Virus record (IMG/VR): IMGVR_UViG_3300043313_000968
Span: 1-41,932 of that record
Reading direction: 5' to 3' (one strand)
Length of the DNA stretch: 41,932 nucleotides
Source of the DNA: a virus
Below are positions 11,230 to 41,756 of this stretch, in pieces. Position numbers and translations under genes: made by a program. Numbering within the stretch: the first letter of the stretch is position 1; every line of letters begins with the position of its first letter. The notes beneath the pieces were generated by a model, which made no database searches, was not told the DNA's origin, and saw only the letters and a program-made list of their open reading frames with translations.

Positions 11230-12288
11230 ATGACCTCTCCCGATTCGTTCCTGAGCGGCGGCGCGAAGGCGGTGTCGTTCGGCGGACTGCAGGCTCAGCC
11301 CGCGGGGTTCCAGCCCTACAACCAGGATGCGGTGTGGCTGGGCATGCAACAGCTCGAGCCGGCCCAGATCGTTCAGAACCGCAACTTCGACACGGGCGAG
11401 CTCGAGTGGTGGGACGACGCGAAAACCCAGAAGAAAGAGGCCATGTGCCTGGTGATGCAGACCGCCAAGCGCAATCCCCAGGACCCGAACGACGATGGGA
11501 TCCGGCGGCTGTTCATCAGCGGCAAGAGCATGAAAGAGGCTCTGGCCAAGGCGATGGCCGACGTCGGCGCGGTCGGTGCTCCCCAGCCCGGTTGCCTGAT
11601 CGACATGGCCTTCGTCGGCGTCGAACCCGTTCCGGGTGGTAAGAAGACGCGGCGCCTCTACGCGTCGAAGTACACCCCGCCCTCAGCCAGCTTCCTGGCC
11701 CAGCACGCCCCCGCCCAGCCGCCGGCTCAGCAGGGCGCGCCTGGCGGTTACGACCCGTTCGCTCCTCAGGGTCAGCAGGCTGGTCCGCCGGCTCAGCAGT
11801 ACCAGCAGGGCCCGCCGGCACAGGCACCGCAACCGCAATACGCGGCTCAGGGCGGGTACCCCGCTCAGGCTCAGCAGGGCGCGACCGCGGGTTACGACCC
11901 GTTCGCCGGCCAGCAGGCCGGTCCCCCCGCTCAGCAGGGTTACCCCCAGCAGGCGCCCAGTCAGCCCGCGTGGATGCCCGGTCCCGCCGAAGTCGCGGCC
12001 GCAACTCCGCAACAGCAGGCTGGTCCGCCGGCTCAGCAGGGATACAACCCTGCTCAGTACGCGGCTCCGGGGACTCCCCAGGGTCCGCCGGCTCAGCCGG
12101 GTCAGCCCGCCGGATACGACCCGTTCGCTCCCCAGGGTCAGCAGGCCGCGCCACCGCAACAGCAGTACCAGCAGGCGCCCGCTCAGCAGGGTTACCCCCA
12201 GCAGGGCGCGCCCGCCGGATACGACCCGTTCGCTCCCCAGGGTCAGCAGGCCGGTCCGCCGGCCCAGCAGGGTTACCCCGGGCAGTAA
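11230..12288 (+). CDS. Probable ssDNA-binding protein with repetitive disordered tail
   Basis: This 352-residue protein has an N-terminal domain of about 150 residues with NRNFDTGELEWWDD and DGIRRLFISG. It resembles an actinophage family of small OB-like proteins that I associate with ssDNA binding; this is from memory of the pattern, not a search. The C-terminal 200 residues are almost entirely Gln, Pro, Gly, Ala and Tyr, with GYDPFA four times and the unit GPPAQQ repeated many times. Its own promoter and long structured leader suggest abundant, regulated expression. It follows the exonuclease, consistent with a recombination/replication module. Confidence 0.6.
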   Translation: MTSPDSFLSGGAKAVSFGGLQAQPAGFQPYNQDAVWLGMQQLEPAQIVQNRNFDTGELEWWDDAKTQKKEAMCLVMQTAKRNPQDPNDDGIRRLFISGKSMKEALAKAMADVGAVGAPQPGCLIDMAFVGVEPVPGGKKTRRLYASKYTPPSASFLAQHAPAQPPAQQGAPGGYDPFAPQGQQAGPPAQQYQQGPPAQAPQPQYAAQGGYPAQAQQGATAGYDPFAGQQAGPPAQQGYPQQAPSQPAWMPGPAEVAAATPQQQAGPPAQQGYNPAQYAAPGTPQGPPAQPGQPAGYDPFAPQGQQAAPPQQQYQQAPAQQGYPQQGAPAGYDPFAPQGQQAGPPAQQGYPGQ

Positions 12289-12297
12289 CCTCAGTCC

Positions 12298-12332
12298 CCT
12301 GGCGGTCGTCGCTTCGTGGTCCGGCCGCCAGG
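12298..12332 (+). terminator. Terminator-like hairpin after the ssDNA-binding gene
   Basis: CCTGGCGG (12298-12305) pairs perfectly with CCGCCAGG (12325-12332) around a 19-base loop. It begins 10 bases after the stop at 12288. There is no T-tract, which is common for actinobacterial terminators. Confidence 0.5.
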
Positions 12333-12357
12333 TGTAGTACCCCTTTCCACAGTCAGC

Positions 12358-12449
12358 GCGGCGGGGTTTTGAGGAATTTCCCCTACCGCTGCAGACCGAG
12401 GAGAGGCCTCCGTCCCCCTGGGCGACAGACGCGGCAAACAGGGGGACGG
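12358..12449 (+). ncRNA. Two further hairpins in the non-coding stretch
   Basis: Stem 1: GCGG c GGGG (12358-12366) against CCCC ta CCGC (12380-12389). Stem 2: CCGTCCCCCTG (12410-12420) against CAGGGGGACGG (12439-12449), 11 perfect pairs with an 18-base loop. Both lie between the terminator-like hairpin and the first tRNA-like structure, in a 498-bp stretch (12289-12786) that has no credible reading frame. They may be parts of one or more non-coding RNAs or processing signals. Confidence 0.4.
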
Positions 12450-12453
12450 TTGG

Positions 12454-12538
12454 GGGTCCGTACAGCTCAATTGGCAGAGCGCCGCAACATGCCGGGAGGC
12501 ATTGAGCGGGTGTCCAGGTTCAAGTCCTGGCGGATCCA
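12454..12538 (+). ncRNA. tRNA-like structure 1 with abnormal anticodon arm
   Basis: The acceptor GGGTCCG (12454-12460) pairs with CGGATCC (12531-12537, one G-T pair), with discriminator A. The D stem is GCTC/GAGC with loop AATTGGCA. The T arm is CCAGG TTCAAGT CCTGG (12514-12530), including the conserved GTTC. Between them, instead of a 7-base anticodon loop, is a long arm: CCGC/GCGG, an internal loop, then ATGCC/GGCAT closed by GGGA. Four rather than two bases separate acceptor and D stems, and no CCA is encoded. It cannot decode in the normal way; it may be a tRNA mimic, decoy or decayed tRNA. Confidence 0.5.
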
Positions 12539-12634
12539 CGCGAGGCAGGTCATCAAAACCCGAGTAGGGGATCCGGAGCGCTCCGGGTGCTCCGTGCAAA
12601 TCGAGGCGCTGAGGTGGCCTGTCTCCACAAAGTT

Positions 12635-12706
12635 CGTCCCGCACTATCGCGGCGAAAGCGTCTCCGGGCCCAGGGGGCGTGACAGGTTCGAATCCTGGCG
12701 GGACGA
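12635..12706 (+). ncRNA. tRNA-like structure 2 with abnormal D and anticodon arms
   Basis: CGTCCCG (12635-12641) pairs perfectly with CGGGACG (12699-12705), discriminator A, for a total of 72 nt, a normal tRNA length. The T arm has CAGG TTCGAAT CCTG (12683-12697). A possible anticodon arm is TCTCC/GGGGG with loop GGGCCCA (12666-12672), which lacks the universal U33. The D region does not form a standard stem. CCA is not encoded. With structure 1 it makes a pair of tRNA mimics 96 bp apart. Confidence 0.4.
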
Positions 12707-12708
12707 TA

Positions 12709-12749
12709 GGGCGGCTCGAGACGGGGAGCTCCACTGGCTCGAGCCGCCC
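12709..12749 (+). terminator. 12-bp perfect hairpin after the tRNA-like pair
   Basis: GGGCGGCTCGAG (12709-12720) pairs with CTCGAGCCGCCC (12738-12749) around a 17-base loop that contains the palindrome GGAGCTCC. It starts 2 bases after the second tRNA-like structure and has no T-tract. Each arm carries the CTCGAG palindrome seen in another terminator at 15424-15478. It may end the RNA locus or shape its 3' end. Confidence 0.55.
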
Positions 12750-12786
12750 GCCCTTTACCCACTACTGTGAGGAAAGAAGTATCACA

Positions 12787-13233
12787 ATGCGTAAACTGAC
12801 AACCGGATTGCTCGTCACCGCGGGGGTGGCCGCCATCGTCGGCGCGATCGCGATCAGCGATGACGCTCAGCCGCGCAGCTTCCCGGCGACCGGCTGGACG
12901 GCCGGGACGATCCTGATCACACCGACTCCGCCGGCGGAGTCGATCCCCGCGGAGCCCCTGCAGGTCTCGAGCCCCGGGACGTTGCGGAGCGGCCTGTACC
13001 ACGCGGTGACGTCGCCGACCTCCGCTGATGAGATGCAAGCGGGAGCGACGTATCACACCGCCGGTCCGGAGACTGGTGACCTGGTCGGGAGCTGCTACTG
13101 GGCGAAGCGCAAGGACGACTCGGGGGACTTCGCCGCGATCCTCGCGAATGGCAACACCTCCGGCGTTTCACAGATCACGCTCAAGGCCGGCCAGTACCTC
13201 GAGCTGAATGGCTCGTGCACGTGGACGAAGTGA
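12787..13233 (+). CDS. Exported protein with CYWAR/G-type extracellular domain
   Basis: This 148-residue protein has an N-terminal signal or anchor (basic MRK, then about 18 hydrophobic residues) and a Pro/Ser-rich linker. Its C-terminal domain pattern is YHTAGPE, then CYWAKRKD, then ILANGNTSGVSQITLKAGQY and NGSCTWTK. This Cys-paired domain is widespread in exported actinobacterial and actinophage proteins. ATG 12787 is behind GAGGAAAG; the frame is open upstream through the RNA locus but that part is not a gene. A cell-surface role such as exclusion of other phages is possible. The stop overlaps the LuxR-type gene. Confidence 0.6.
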   Translation: MRKLTTGLLVTAGVAAIVGAIAISDDAQPRSFPATGWTAGTILITPTPPAESIPAEPLQVSSPGTLRSGLYHAVTSPTSADEMQAGATYHTAGPETGDLVGSCYWAKRKDDSGDFAAILANGNTSGVSQITLKAGQYLELNGSCTWTK

Positions 13234-13748
13234 CTCCCCCGGAGCGCATAGAGCTGGTGGTTCTGCCAGACGAGCGTGAAAGCTACGGGCCGAAGAAAAA
13301 GGACCCGAACGCGAACAGAATCTTCATCTCCGCCAGGCACAAGGAAGTGCTCGAGCTGGTGGCGCTGGGGCTGACCAATAAAGAGATCGGCCAAAAGCTG
13401 TTTATTTCGGAAGACACCGTGAAAACGCATGTTCGCCGACTCATGCAGAAAACCGGTACGGGCACCCGAGTTTCCCTGGTGGTCCTGGCCGCGCGCATGG
13501 GGTGGCTCGAGGACTTCGACGCAGTCAAGGACATTACGGTCAACCCGCGTCCCGGGGCGGTCAAAGTCATACGTATCAAGGCGAAGCGTCGGATCAGCCC
13601 TGAACAGGCCACCGCTCTGGCCATCATCGCGTACACCACCGCACTGCCGACCGAATCTCAGCAGTGGGACAAGGAGCACACGCACACCCGAAACCGCTGG
13701 CGTCGCATCGCGGTGGCGGTCGCCCAGGAAAGGGACGTGCAAGAGTGA
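13230..13748 (+). CDS. LuxR/GerE-type transcriptional regulator
   Basis: This 172-residue protein has a clear LuxR-type HTH at about residues 34-91: ISARHKEVLELVALGLTNKE, then IGQKLFISEDTVKTHVRRLM and TRVSLVVLAARMG. There is no receiver or ligand-binding domain ahead of it, only about 33 basic residues. After the HTH is an extra region of about 80 residues ending in a basic helix (HTRNRWRRIAVAVAQERDVQ). GTG 13230 is chosen for its overlap with the preceding stop. It is a candidate switch protein for early or late phage promoters; its target sites are unknown. Confidence 0.75.
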   Translation: MTPPERIELVVLPDERESYGPKKKDPNANRIFISARHKEVLELVALGLTNKEIGQKLFISEDTVKTHVRRLMQKTGTGTRVSLVVLAARMGWLEDFDAVKDITVNPRPGAVKVIRIKAKRRISPEQATALAIIAYTTALPTESQQWDKEHTHTRNRWRRIAVAVAQERDVQE

Positions 13749-39424: not shown

Positions 39425-39961
39425 TCAGGTGTCTTCCTGGGCTATCGCCAGGGCTCGAGCGAACGTCGTCAGGGCGTCTGTTCCGGTCAAGGGGTCGCTG
39501 AGCGGGGTCACGGTAATCAGGCATCCGGGAGTCTCCCCCTGCTCAGCGATCACCTTGTCCACCACGATCCGGGTGGCCTGAGAGTCGTCGTGCCAGACGT
39601 GCGCGAAGGTGACCGCGTCCATCACCGCGCGGAGGAGTTTGTCCGCGTCGGGCCGTTTGGTGGCTCGAGGGGTCGGTTTGCCGTTGAGGTACTTCGGGCG
39701 CGGCATGACGAACCAGATTTCGATCATCACCCCGCCGGCGAACGGCGGTGTGGGTGCCCAGGGGATCAGCTCATCGCGCACAGCTTTTCTCCACTCGTCC
39801 AGGCCCTTGGCGGAGTCGAGCAACACGACCTTGCCCGTGTAGACCCGCGTGCCCTTGGCCTTACTCCCGCGCGCGATCGCGATCCCGTTCTTGCTGCCCT
39901 GAGGGCGAGCAACCCCGGGAACCCATACCGTGATCACGCCTTCGGCCTGCTCACTTGGCAT
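39425..39961 (-). CDS. RusA-like Holliday junction resolvase
   Basis: This 178-residue endonuclease would resolve branched DNA during replication and before packaging. The family signature is clear: VARPQGSKN near the N-terminus, KRPDADKLLRAVMDAVT with the catalytic aspartates, and VWHDDSQAT. It overlaps the 3' end of polA by 11 bases. Length is a little above the RusA norm. Confidence 0.85.
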   Translation of the reverse strand: MPSEQAEGVITVWVPGVARPQGSKNGIAIARGSKAKGTRVYTGKVVLLDSAKGLDEWRKAVRDELIPWAPTPPFAGGVMIEIWFVMPRPKYLNGKPTPRATKRPDADKLLRAVMDAVTFAHVWHDDSQATRIVVDKVIAEQGETPGCLITVTPLSDPLTGTDALTTFARALAIAQEDT

Positions 39962-41756
39962 AGCAGGCCGCCCAGTTGTCGCCGCGCTTCGACTTATCGG
40001 CGGGGATGTGCACTGGCCGCGACGCTCCGGGCGGCGCCCAGTCGAAGGACATGCAGTCCACGATCAGCCGCTCGATCTCGTCAACGTGGCGCCGCGGGAT
40101 GGAGAACACCAGCTCATCGTGGACCTGAGCACGGATCATGCGTGCGACGTCGGGGGCAACGTTGTCGATCCTGAGCATGCCTTCGGTGACGATGTCCCGC
40201 GTCGCGCCCTGGCCCATCAGGGCGGGTCCCTGGGTGTGTTCGCGGCCGGGGGTGCACCGCATCTTCCTGCCGAAGCCGTTGTCGAGCATGGCTCCGGTCT
40301 TGGCCAGCGCGGTGACCTCTTGGTTCCACATCGCTTTCCTGGCGAATTGCTGGCGCATGATCACGTGGAAGCGGTGGGCCAGCTCCCGGGACACGCCGGC
40401 GGTTTCGCTGAGCCGTTCTTCGCCCATCAGGTAGTTGTAGCCGTGACTGAGTGGTTTGGCCTGTTCCCGGTAGCCGGCGGGGTCGGTGGCTACCAAGACC
40501 TCCCCCCACACCATTTTCGCCACTTCGGCGTGCATGTCCTTGCCGGGAAGGAACATGTCCAGGTAGTTGTGGTCCTGGCTGTGCACGGCGACCGCGCGGG
40601 CGTCAACCTGGGCCAGGTCGAAGGCGACCAGCACTTCGTCGTAGTCGTCGGGGAGCAACACGGCGCGTTCCCGGACGCGTCCGCCGCGCTTGCCTAGCAC
40701 GGTGAGTCCCGGATCGGTGGTGGACCAGCGCCCGGAGGCCTGGAACATGGAGATGCTGGGGTGGACGCGTCCATCGTCGGCCAGGTGGTCGGTGAGGGTC
40801 TGGTACACGGTGCGCACGCCCACCAGGGCCGCGATGGCCTCGCACAGCGTCTTCACCGCGGGGTTGGGGTGGCGGGCGCCCAGTTCCAGCATCGTCTCCC
40901 CCTTGAACGACACAGCCCCCTTCGGTGTGTGCGGTAGCTGGGCTTCGGCGATCCCGTGACGGGCGAAGGCGTCGATCAGCGCGGCCTTGCCGTTCTTGCT
41001 GGCCGCGGGGGACTTGAACGGGACACCCTTGTCATCGGTGAGCGGGAGCCCGTAGAACCTCACCAGCTGATCGATCAGTTCGGCCTTGCGGGCTTGGCCT
41101 TCGGCGAACCTCTGCTCAAGGAGTCGATCGTCCACGCGGAACCCCGTGGAGCTGATGTGGCCGGCGATCGCGGCGACGCGCTGTTCCCGCCAGACGTAGT
41201 CGGTCACCAGGCCGCGGGACAGAAAGTAGCTGGCGAGGGCCTGGGTGGCCTGCAGATCGCCGGCGAGATAGGCGCGGTATCGCGGGTCGTCCAGGGGGAT
41301 CCGGCCGTAACCTCCGTGCTCTTTAGCCAGCGCGGGCAGGTCGTCGGATTTGCCGATCCCGGTGAGTTTGGGTCCGATTGAGTCCAGTTTGTACAGTTTG
41401 CGCGCCGCTTCGGGCTTGAGGTTCGCCGGCGGCGGGTACACGGTGGCCGCGGTGACCATGGTGTCGAGGATCCGCCGATCCCGCGCCAGCGCGATGTAGT
41501 CCAGCCGTGCGCCTCCCGCGGCGCGGCGGGCGCGATCGAGCAACGGCAGGTCGTAGTCCAAGGCGTTGTGGCCGACCGTGAGGGCTGAGGTCTCCGCGAT
41601 CGAGGCAAGGGCCCGCGGGTCGGTGACGTACCCGACCGGCTGACCGGCGTACTGAGCCCCGCCCAGCCGGTAGAAGCGATCCGGGGGGACGTCGTATTGG
41701 TCGTCGGCGTCGCCGGTTTCGATGTCCAGGACTACGGGGGGAGTAGAGATTTTCAT
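39951..41756 (-). CDS. polA: DNA polymerase I-like (family A) with 3'-5' exonuclease
   Basis: This 601-residue replicative polymerase lacks the 5'-3' exonuclease domain. The exonuclease motifs are VVLDIETG (Asp 11, Glu 13) and VGHNALDYDLPLLDRARR. Polymerase motif A is FDLAQVDARAV (Asp 380), motif B is REQAKPLSHGYNY (about 430-446), and motif C is VHDELV (Asp 547, Glu 548). In motif B the position normally Phe before Gly is His (SHGYN), which I believe is seen in other actinophage polymerases. I see no CTCGAG in this gene, unlike the rest of the genome. It starts next to the putative origin. ATG 41756 lacks a clear Shine-Dalgarno. Confidence 0.9.
   Translation of the reverse strand: MKISTPPVVLDIETGDADDQYDVPPDRFYRLGGAQYAGQPVGYVTDPRALASIAETSALTVGHNALDYDLPLLDRARRAAGGARLDYIALARDRRILDTMVTAATVYPPPANLKPEAARKLYKLDSIGPKLTGIGKSDDLPALAKEHGGYGRIPLDDPRYRAYLAGDLQATQALASYFLSRGLVTDYVWREQRVAAIAGHISSTGFRVDDRLLEQRFAEGQARKAELIDQLVRFYGLPLTDDKGVPFKSPAASKNGKAALIDAFARHGIAEAQLPHTPKGAVSFKGETMLELGARHPNPAVKTLCEAIAALVGVRTVYQTLTDHLADDGRVHPSISMFQASGRWSTTDPGLTVLGKRGGRVRERAVLLPDDYDEVLVAFDLAQVDARAVAVHSQDHNYLDMFLPGKDMHAEVAKMVWGEVLVATDPAGYREQAKPLSHGYNYLMGEERLSETAGVSRELAHRFHVIMRQQFARKAMWNQEVTALAKTGAMLDNGFGRKMRCTPGREHTQGPALMGQGATRDIVTEGMLRIDNVAPDVARMIRAQVHDELVFSIPRRHVDEIERLIVDCMSFDWAPPGASRPVHIPADKSKRGDNWAACYAK

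Follow-up and report, generated by a model that had tools for sequence, protein, structure and literature searches.

tRNA-shaped, non-decoding RNA elements in a structured non-coding locus of a viral genome, and an element of the same build in relatives of phage phiC31

The locus described here raises the question of whether tRNA-shaped elements without a normal anticodon loop are broken tRNA genes or RNAs retained for another use. It lies in IMGVR_UViG_3300043313_000968, a single IMG/VR record of 41,932 bases with a GC content of 64%, the whole of which is referred to as the window. Genes for tail, head, portal, terminase, primase, DNA polymerase, helicase and a Cas4-like exonuclease were recognized in the window, and its terminase relatives among named genomes occur in Streptomyces, Actinomadura and Glycomyces, from which an actinomycete appears the most likely host. 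The primase and DNA polymerase genes (140-2461 and 39951-41756, minus strand) sit at opposite contig ends and match different parts of one polymerase family, phrog_17, which would fit a near-complete genome that is circularly permuted.

The non-coding stretch and its tRNA-shaped elements

Positions 12289-12786 separate an upstream gene, whose stop codon ends at 12288, from the next ATG at 12787. The initial annotation had seen no credible gene in these 498 bp, and indeed no gene with a codon-position GC signal was detected there; a 147-aa minus-strand ORF across the locus was rejected for want of this signal. The genes flanking the locus run in the same direction. The upstream gene (11230-12288) encodes a protein with a match to phrog_1911 (function unknown) over its N-terminal half and a long tail rich in Q, P and G, in which repeats such as GYDPFAPQGQQ occur. 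Downstream, 12787-13230 encodes a small protein that begins like a signal peptide and belongs to no family, followed by a LuxR-type HTH regulator at 13215-13745 (GerE, 3.9e-17).

Folding of the locus gave an MFE of -245.9 (z -4.3 versus shuffled sequence), and six perfect stems of at least 7 bp were counted, compared to a mean of 1.4 and a maximum of 4 in shuffles. Four perfect stems had been noted at first, and four with at least 8 pairs were located, a count that is not unique to the locus since a few other 498-nt stretches of the genome reach 4 or 5. The individual features are listed in Table 1.

Table 1. Structured elements of the locus, with z-scores of single-element folds against 300 shuffles
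Feature	Position	Strand	Description	z
H1	12298..12332	+	8-bp perfect stem CCTGGCGG/CCGCCAGG (12298-12305/12325-12332)	-4.4
H2	12352..12396	+	Interrupted hairpin with AT-rich 13-nt loop; weak	-1.9
H3	12410..12449	+	11-bp perfect hairpin (12410-12420/12439-12449), 18-nt loop	-3.0
T1	12454..12538	+	tRNA-like RNA, 85 nt; acceptor GGGTCCG/CGGATCC, A73, D and T arms intact	-3.0
T1 anticodon-arm replacement	12482..12509	+	CCGC-AAC-ATGCC-GGGA-GGCAT-TGA-GCGG	
M	12542..12626	+	13-bp stem (10 Watson-Crick, 3 G-U) around three arms	-3.8
T2	12635..12706	+	tRNA-like RNA, 72 nt; perfect acceptor CGTCCCG/CGGGACG	-2.0
H5	12709..12749	+	12-bp perfect hairpin (12709-12720/12738-12749), 17-nt loop	-5.9

H1 starts 10 nt past the upstream stop codon, extends further with small interruptions, and is possibly a terminator or a processing hairpin. 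Between T1 and T2 lies M, which is absent from the initial annotation and belongs to no known family; none of 300 shuffles was as stable. H5, starting 3 nt past T2, is terminator-like without a T run. Actinobacterial terminators frequently lack a T run, and the strong perfect stems of H1, H3 and H5 would also suit a locus in which only DNA or transcript hairpins matter, as terminators or RNase sites between gene blocks, with the tRNA remnants as passengers. We regard this as unlikely, as no T-run terminator was found, the flanking genes are co-directional, and M and T1 are unusual folds in themselves.

A cloverleaf finder based on a 7-bp acceptor, a D arm with GG and a T arm returned exactly two elements in the entire 42-kb genome, T1, scoring 18, and T2, scoring 15. 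Across 150 shuffled genomes it gave no cloverleaf with a score of at least 18, and 0.127 per genome with at least 15. The lengths of 85 and 72 nt originally given proved right for T1 and T2. ARAGORN reported no tRNA and no tmRNA in the window, and the Rfam tRNA model scored T1 at 24.7 bits, under the cut-off of 29, and left T2 unreported.

T1 is laid out as GGGTCCG-TACA-D arm-G, the replaced arm (Table 1), and GTGT-T arm-CGGATCC-A. All 16 body pairs of acceptor, D and T stems are formed, with a G-U at acceptor pair 3-70. In the odd arm a 4-bp stem is followed by an internal loop and a hairpin capped by GGGA, a GNRA tetraloop, which bears out the first description of an anticodon loop replaced by a long GGGA-capped stem. 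T2 has a canonical length and pairs at 7/7 acceptor, 3/4 D-stem and 4/5 T-stem positions; with its extension the acceptor becomes a 9-bp perfect stem (12634-12642/12698-12706). Its anticodon loop, GGGCCCA, carries G33 and C37. Both the missing U33 and the abnormal D arm noted before were seen again. A 5-bp anticodon stem with a 7-nt loop, U33 and a purine at 37 is found neither in T1 nor in T2, and by established tRNA knowledge neither of them can decode normally. The cloverleaf finder and the missing normal anticodon loops thus agree with the original view of both elements as tRNA-shaped and non-decoding.

Unusual decoding would have to proceed without a normal anticodon loop in T1 and without U33 in T2. 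It shares a very low probability with the proposal that the locus is an attP carrying tRNA 3’ ends: the T arm of T2 weakly matches the RP3 and VWB attP cores (E about 9), but T1 and T2 are both full length, and a PHROGs or Pfam scan of about 30 ORFs, with the small ones partly covered, gave no integrase. On this coverage an attP in a tRNA fragment was set aside as improbable. The tRNA-like domain of tmRNA combines a tRNA-shaped end with G3-U70 and no anticodon. T1 shares these features, although the phiC31 relatives described below do not keep G3-U70, and tmRNA was rejected since no tag reading frame and no ARAGORN or Rfam match was found.

The main rival to a retained RNA is neutral decay, in which two acquired tRNA genes are being lost, T1 by insertion into the anticodon arm and T2 by point changes, and the surrounding hairpins are terminators or spacers. 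The D- and T-stem mismatches of T2 and its lack of U33 agree with such relics, as do the sequences closest to T1, a phage tRNA-Asn for the 5’ part and a tRNA-Phe for the 3’ part. Moreover, no relatives demonstrate constraint on the locus. A DNA search of the window against 50,697 phage records gave no match in the tests made, and no homologue of T1, T2 or the whole locus was found in phage DNA or through neighbouring proteins in viral contigs. The inner arm of T1 was likewise not found in the genome collection. The closest protein relatives, at 43% identity for the helicase and 50-61% for the terminase (Streptomyces, Actinomadura and Glycomyces among the hosts), showed no comparable locus and no related exonuclease in the stretches or records searched. 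Against decay stand the 16 of 16 intact body pairs of T1 despite full replacement of the arm, and the new arm itself, a well-formed tetraloop hairpin at least 14 edits away from each of 196 canonical arms, whose plan is kept with compensation elsewhere (see below). If the body had decayed uniformly at the rate of the arm, the probability of all 16 pairs surviving would be about 4e-5, a simple estimate that is compatible with one local insertion. We consider decay of both elements a doubtful explanation. For T2 alone the assignment is uncertain, between a decaying tRNA and a second module that has diverged further.

An element of the same build in phiC31 and its relatives

A tRNA body with the anticodon arm swapped for a longer tetraloop-capped hairpin recurs outside the window. 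Blastn from viral contig L022 led to the Streptomyces phages Euratis, Vash, Heather and Sebastisaurus, and from the Heather element to RemusLoopin, Lilbooboo, Samora, AbbeyMikolon, Nesbitt and phiC31. In phiC31 the element occupies the gp13-gp14 gap (L146, NC_001978.3:31424-31510) and is unannotated in the RefSeq record; ARAGORN miscalls it as tRNA-Gly(ccc). Euratis, Vash, Heather, Sebastisaurus, RemusLoopin, Lilbooboo and Samora carry syntenic relatives at a single conserved site, mostly unannotated, and in a phiC31-like prophage from the Streptomyces genome set the element precedes a gp14 homologue, as in phiC31. Altogether, the build is conserved in phiC31, 6-7 Streptomyces phages, the contigs L022 and L123, and this prophage. 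Two entries filed as tRNA-Gly, in Lilbooboo (L148, 998-1084) and Ibantik (L145, 2852-2941), have a long GNRA-capped hairpin for an anticodon arm and are probably misannotated. Samora has TTCG in place of the GNRA cap.

In an alignment of ten sequences (A2), 98.3% of the pair cells were actually paired, and changes on both sides were found in 10 of 24 pairs, including the two stems of the odd arm, compared to 0-2 when the partners were slid. The outer stem of this arm occurs as CCGC/GCGG, CCAC/GTGG, CCCC/GGGG and TCCC/GGGA. This alignment both defined and tested the structure, and the models derived were built on few sequences. Compensatory changes in the long arm had been proposed initially as a check; they are present in the phiC31-type build, odd arm included, but for T1 itself the searches gave no homologue in which they could appear. 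As the arm motif is kept while acceptor sequences vary widely, importance of any particular amino acid is argued against. On this comparative evidence, the phiC31-family elements are not decaying tRNAs. A search of open-access papers found no account of such an RNA class; the phiC31 element was apparently overlooked so far, and may have been described in earlier literature.

Furthermore, the 5’ internal loop of the arm contains a palindrome directly after AAC in each of the 12 aligned family members, in the versions CCCGGG, TCCGGA, CCTAGG and CCATGG (columns 33-38 of alignment A4). Within the hexamer, which was observed in L141-L144 and L146-L151, only compensated changes occurred. Columns 35 and 36 are adjacent and unable to pair intramolecularly, yet they co-vary, through few (two or three) independent events. 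This suggests intermolecular pairing or a symmetric site: the hexamer might pair two copies of the RNA into dimers, or be a symmetric binding site or target.

T1 follows the same plan as the phiC31 element, with a 4-bp outer stem, AAC, an inner stem and a GNRA cap, and the first eight letters of its arm (GCCGCAAC) are identical to those of phiC31. It differs in its 3-nt 3’ internal loop, in two extra bases before the D arm and in the absence of the palindromic hexamer, the corresponding position reading ATGCCG. An alignment score as high as that of the two arms was obtained with 4 of 2000 shuffles and, among 3000 random arms matched to the plan, with 39. With the full family model T1 reached 44.3 bits, in the same range as ordinary tRNAs, and with an arm-only model 8.0 bits (E 0.058 in 481 bases), which is not significant. 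The window locus is not located between gp13- and gp14-like genes, and matches to phiC31 proteins were distant only (tail genes, DNA polymerase). Since the full-model score is tRNA-like, the arm-only score amounts to 8.0 bits and the hexamer is absent, we describe T1 as having, to judge from its anatomy, the same build as the phiC31 type and claim no family membership; the two arms are not demonstrably homologous.

A possible role for the tRNA body and the replaced arm

The acceptor-T half of a tRNA is the main region on which RNase P, 3’ trimming and CCA addition act, and the artificial tRNA-scaffold method exploits the ability of a tRNA body to stabilise a foreign hairpin. From this we infer that the body may serve the phage as a cassette in which the hairpin is the payload. 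We propose that the locus is an array of structured-RNA modules whose core, T1, is a maintained, non-decoding, tRNA-scaffolded RNA with a payload arm, a reading to which we give an even chance. Counting against it, neither a sigma-70-type promoter nor a homologue of T1 was found, T1 lacks the hexamer and scores like an ordinary tRNA, and T2 has mismatches in its D and T stems. The transcript would be cut out, trimmed and protected by host enzymes through its retained tRNA body, while the longer tetraloop-capped hairpin in place of the anticodon arm would be the active part, binding an RNA or a protein. In the phiC31 relatives the self-complementary hexamer would allow two copies to pair or a symmetric target to be bound, and the perfect hairpins at the flanks of the locus would bound or protect the unit. 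As the build of T1 is that of a conserved RNA in the phiC31 family, such RNAs look like maintained tools and not like broken tRNA genes.

More tentatively, the window might hold a two-member array, each member with its own payload, of an undescribed class of natural tRNA-scaffold RNAs in actinomycete phages. It is equally tentative that, within such a class, the body serves as a processing and stability cassette, the hairpin is exchangeable, and the payload of the phiC31 relatives joins two copies.

A different use of the same shape would be counter-defence, with the body (acceptor, elbow, variable region) occupying a tRNA-sensing or tRNA-cutting host enzyme. Retention of the body with loss of decoding agrees with this, and phages deploy tRNAs against tRNA-cutting defences, tRNA-Tyr versus retron-Eco7 and tRNA-Lys versus an anticodon nuclease (PMC11555353). 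T1 is phage-encoded and tRNA-derived like the defence-evading tRNAs (PMC11555353, PMC10264068), but these decode and possess an anticodon, and the precedents are real tRNAs in which the anticodon matters (PMC11555353). A decoy for anticodon nucleases is weakened because the anticodon loop, which such enzymes read, is replaced; moreover, no defence target is known for the window phage. A decoy of the tRNA body is possible, and we rate decoys overall as rather improbable. Among other known systems, the tRNA-Other of Bacillus cereus is a pseudo-tRNA acting outside translation (PMC3399842), but it is bacterial and has a Trp anticodon, whereas the anticodon arm of T1 is rebuilt. GOLLD and ROOL are structured phage RNAs often found near tRNA islands (PMC12286853), far larger than the separate small modules of the window; both were rejected, with no Rfam match at gathering score across the window.

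Aberrant phage tRNAs are commonly discarded as pseudogenes, or enter annotations as ‘tRNA-OTHER’ or ‘tRNA-Gly’. Because phiC31, in which one aberrant build is conserved and shows compensatory changes, is a workhorse of the laboratory, the function of that build is readily testable; it would reveal that phages use tRNA shape for something unrelated to decoding.

Aberrant tRNA-like elements in other viruses

The closest resemblance to the window locus was found in AbbeyMikolon, where an array (NC_047904.1:41010-41567) includes two entries filed as ‘tRNA-OTHER’, the phiC31-type copy among them. Like the window, it presents a non-coding stretch (about 790 bp, MFE z -4.1) with tRNA-likes and perfect hairpins, and a 12-bp perfect hairpin lies 3 nt before the first tRNA-like, compared to the 11-bp H3 ending 4 nt before T1. 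Unlike the window, the array also holds a canonical tRNA-Asn; no related proteins were found between the two phages in the tests made. In viral contig L064 an 11-bp perfect hairpin is likewise placed 3 nt upstream of a tRNA-like. Upstream hairpins of at least 11 bp were obtained at 4 of 3000 random positions, and phiC31-type copies mostly have short upstream hairpins or none. We take the recurrence of a long upstream hairpin, together with the AbbeyMikolon locus as a whole, as support for the proposed reading of T1 and its locus. The L022 locus, with two tRNA-likes, was rejected as a full analogue of the window as its overall fold is ordinary (z -0.9).

A pattern scan for normal D and T arms with an overlong middle identified at least 119 viral loci. 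Among the matches listed, removal of tRNA-Ile(UAU) and duplicates left 75 arms, some of them from class II tRNAs such as Lys; a full T stem was present in 69 of the 75 and a full 7-bp acceptor, pairing of which is outside the scan pattern, in 52. GNRA caps numbered 5 in these listed arms versus 0.8 expected (maximum 4 in 300), which is suggestive only. A general enrichment of palindromes in aberrant arms was not upheld, being modest: palindromes of 10 or more nt occurred in 8 of the 75 listed arms versus 2.7 expected, with a maximum of 7 in 300 shuffles. A RAYATGC motif common to T1 and contigs L018 and L033 was also dropped, as beyond these two contigs a scan for it gave just a near copy and one match without relation to them.

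Six unrelated viral contigs (L032, L047, L049, L052, L061, L100) have tRNA-likes with a palindrome or near-palindrome in the anticodon arm, followed by an AAAAC-like stretch. In seven others (L041, L045, L069, L080, L098, L129, L130) the tRNA-likes have an arm stem of 3-5 bp and a loop of about 20 nt with common motifs such as CATNTGCTAT and TTAAT. In Microbacterium phage ISF9 (L137, NC_023859.1) a tRNA-like whose 7-bp acceptor is perfect and whose arm is non-canonical (2501-2583) lies inside the DNA primase gene as annotated, at its 5’ end; the start of this gene may be wrong.
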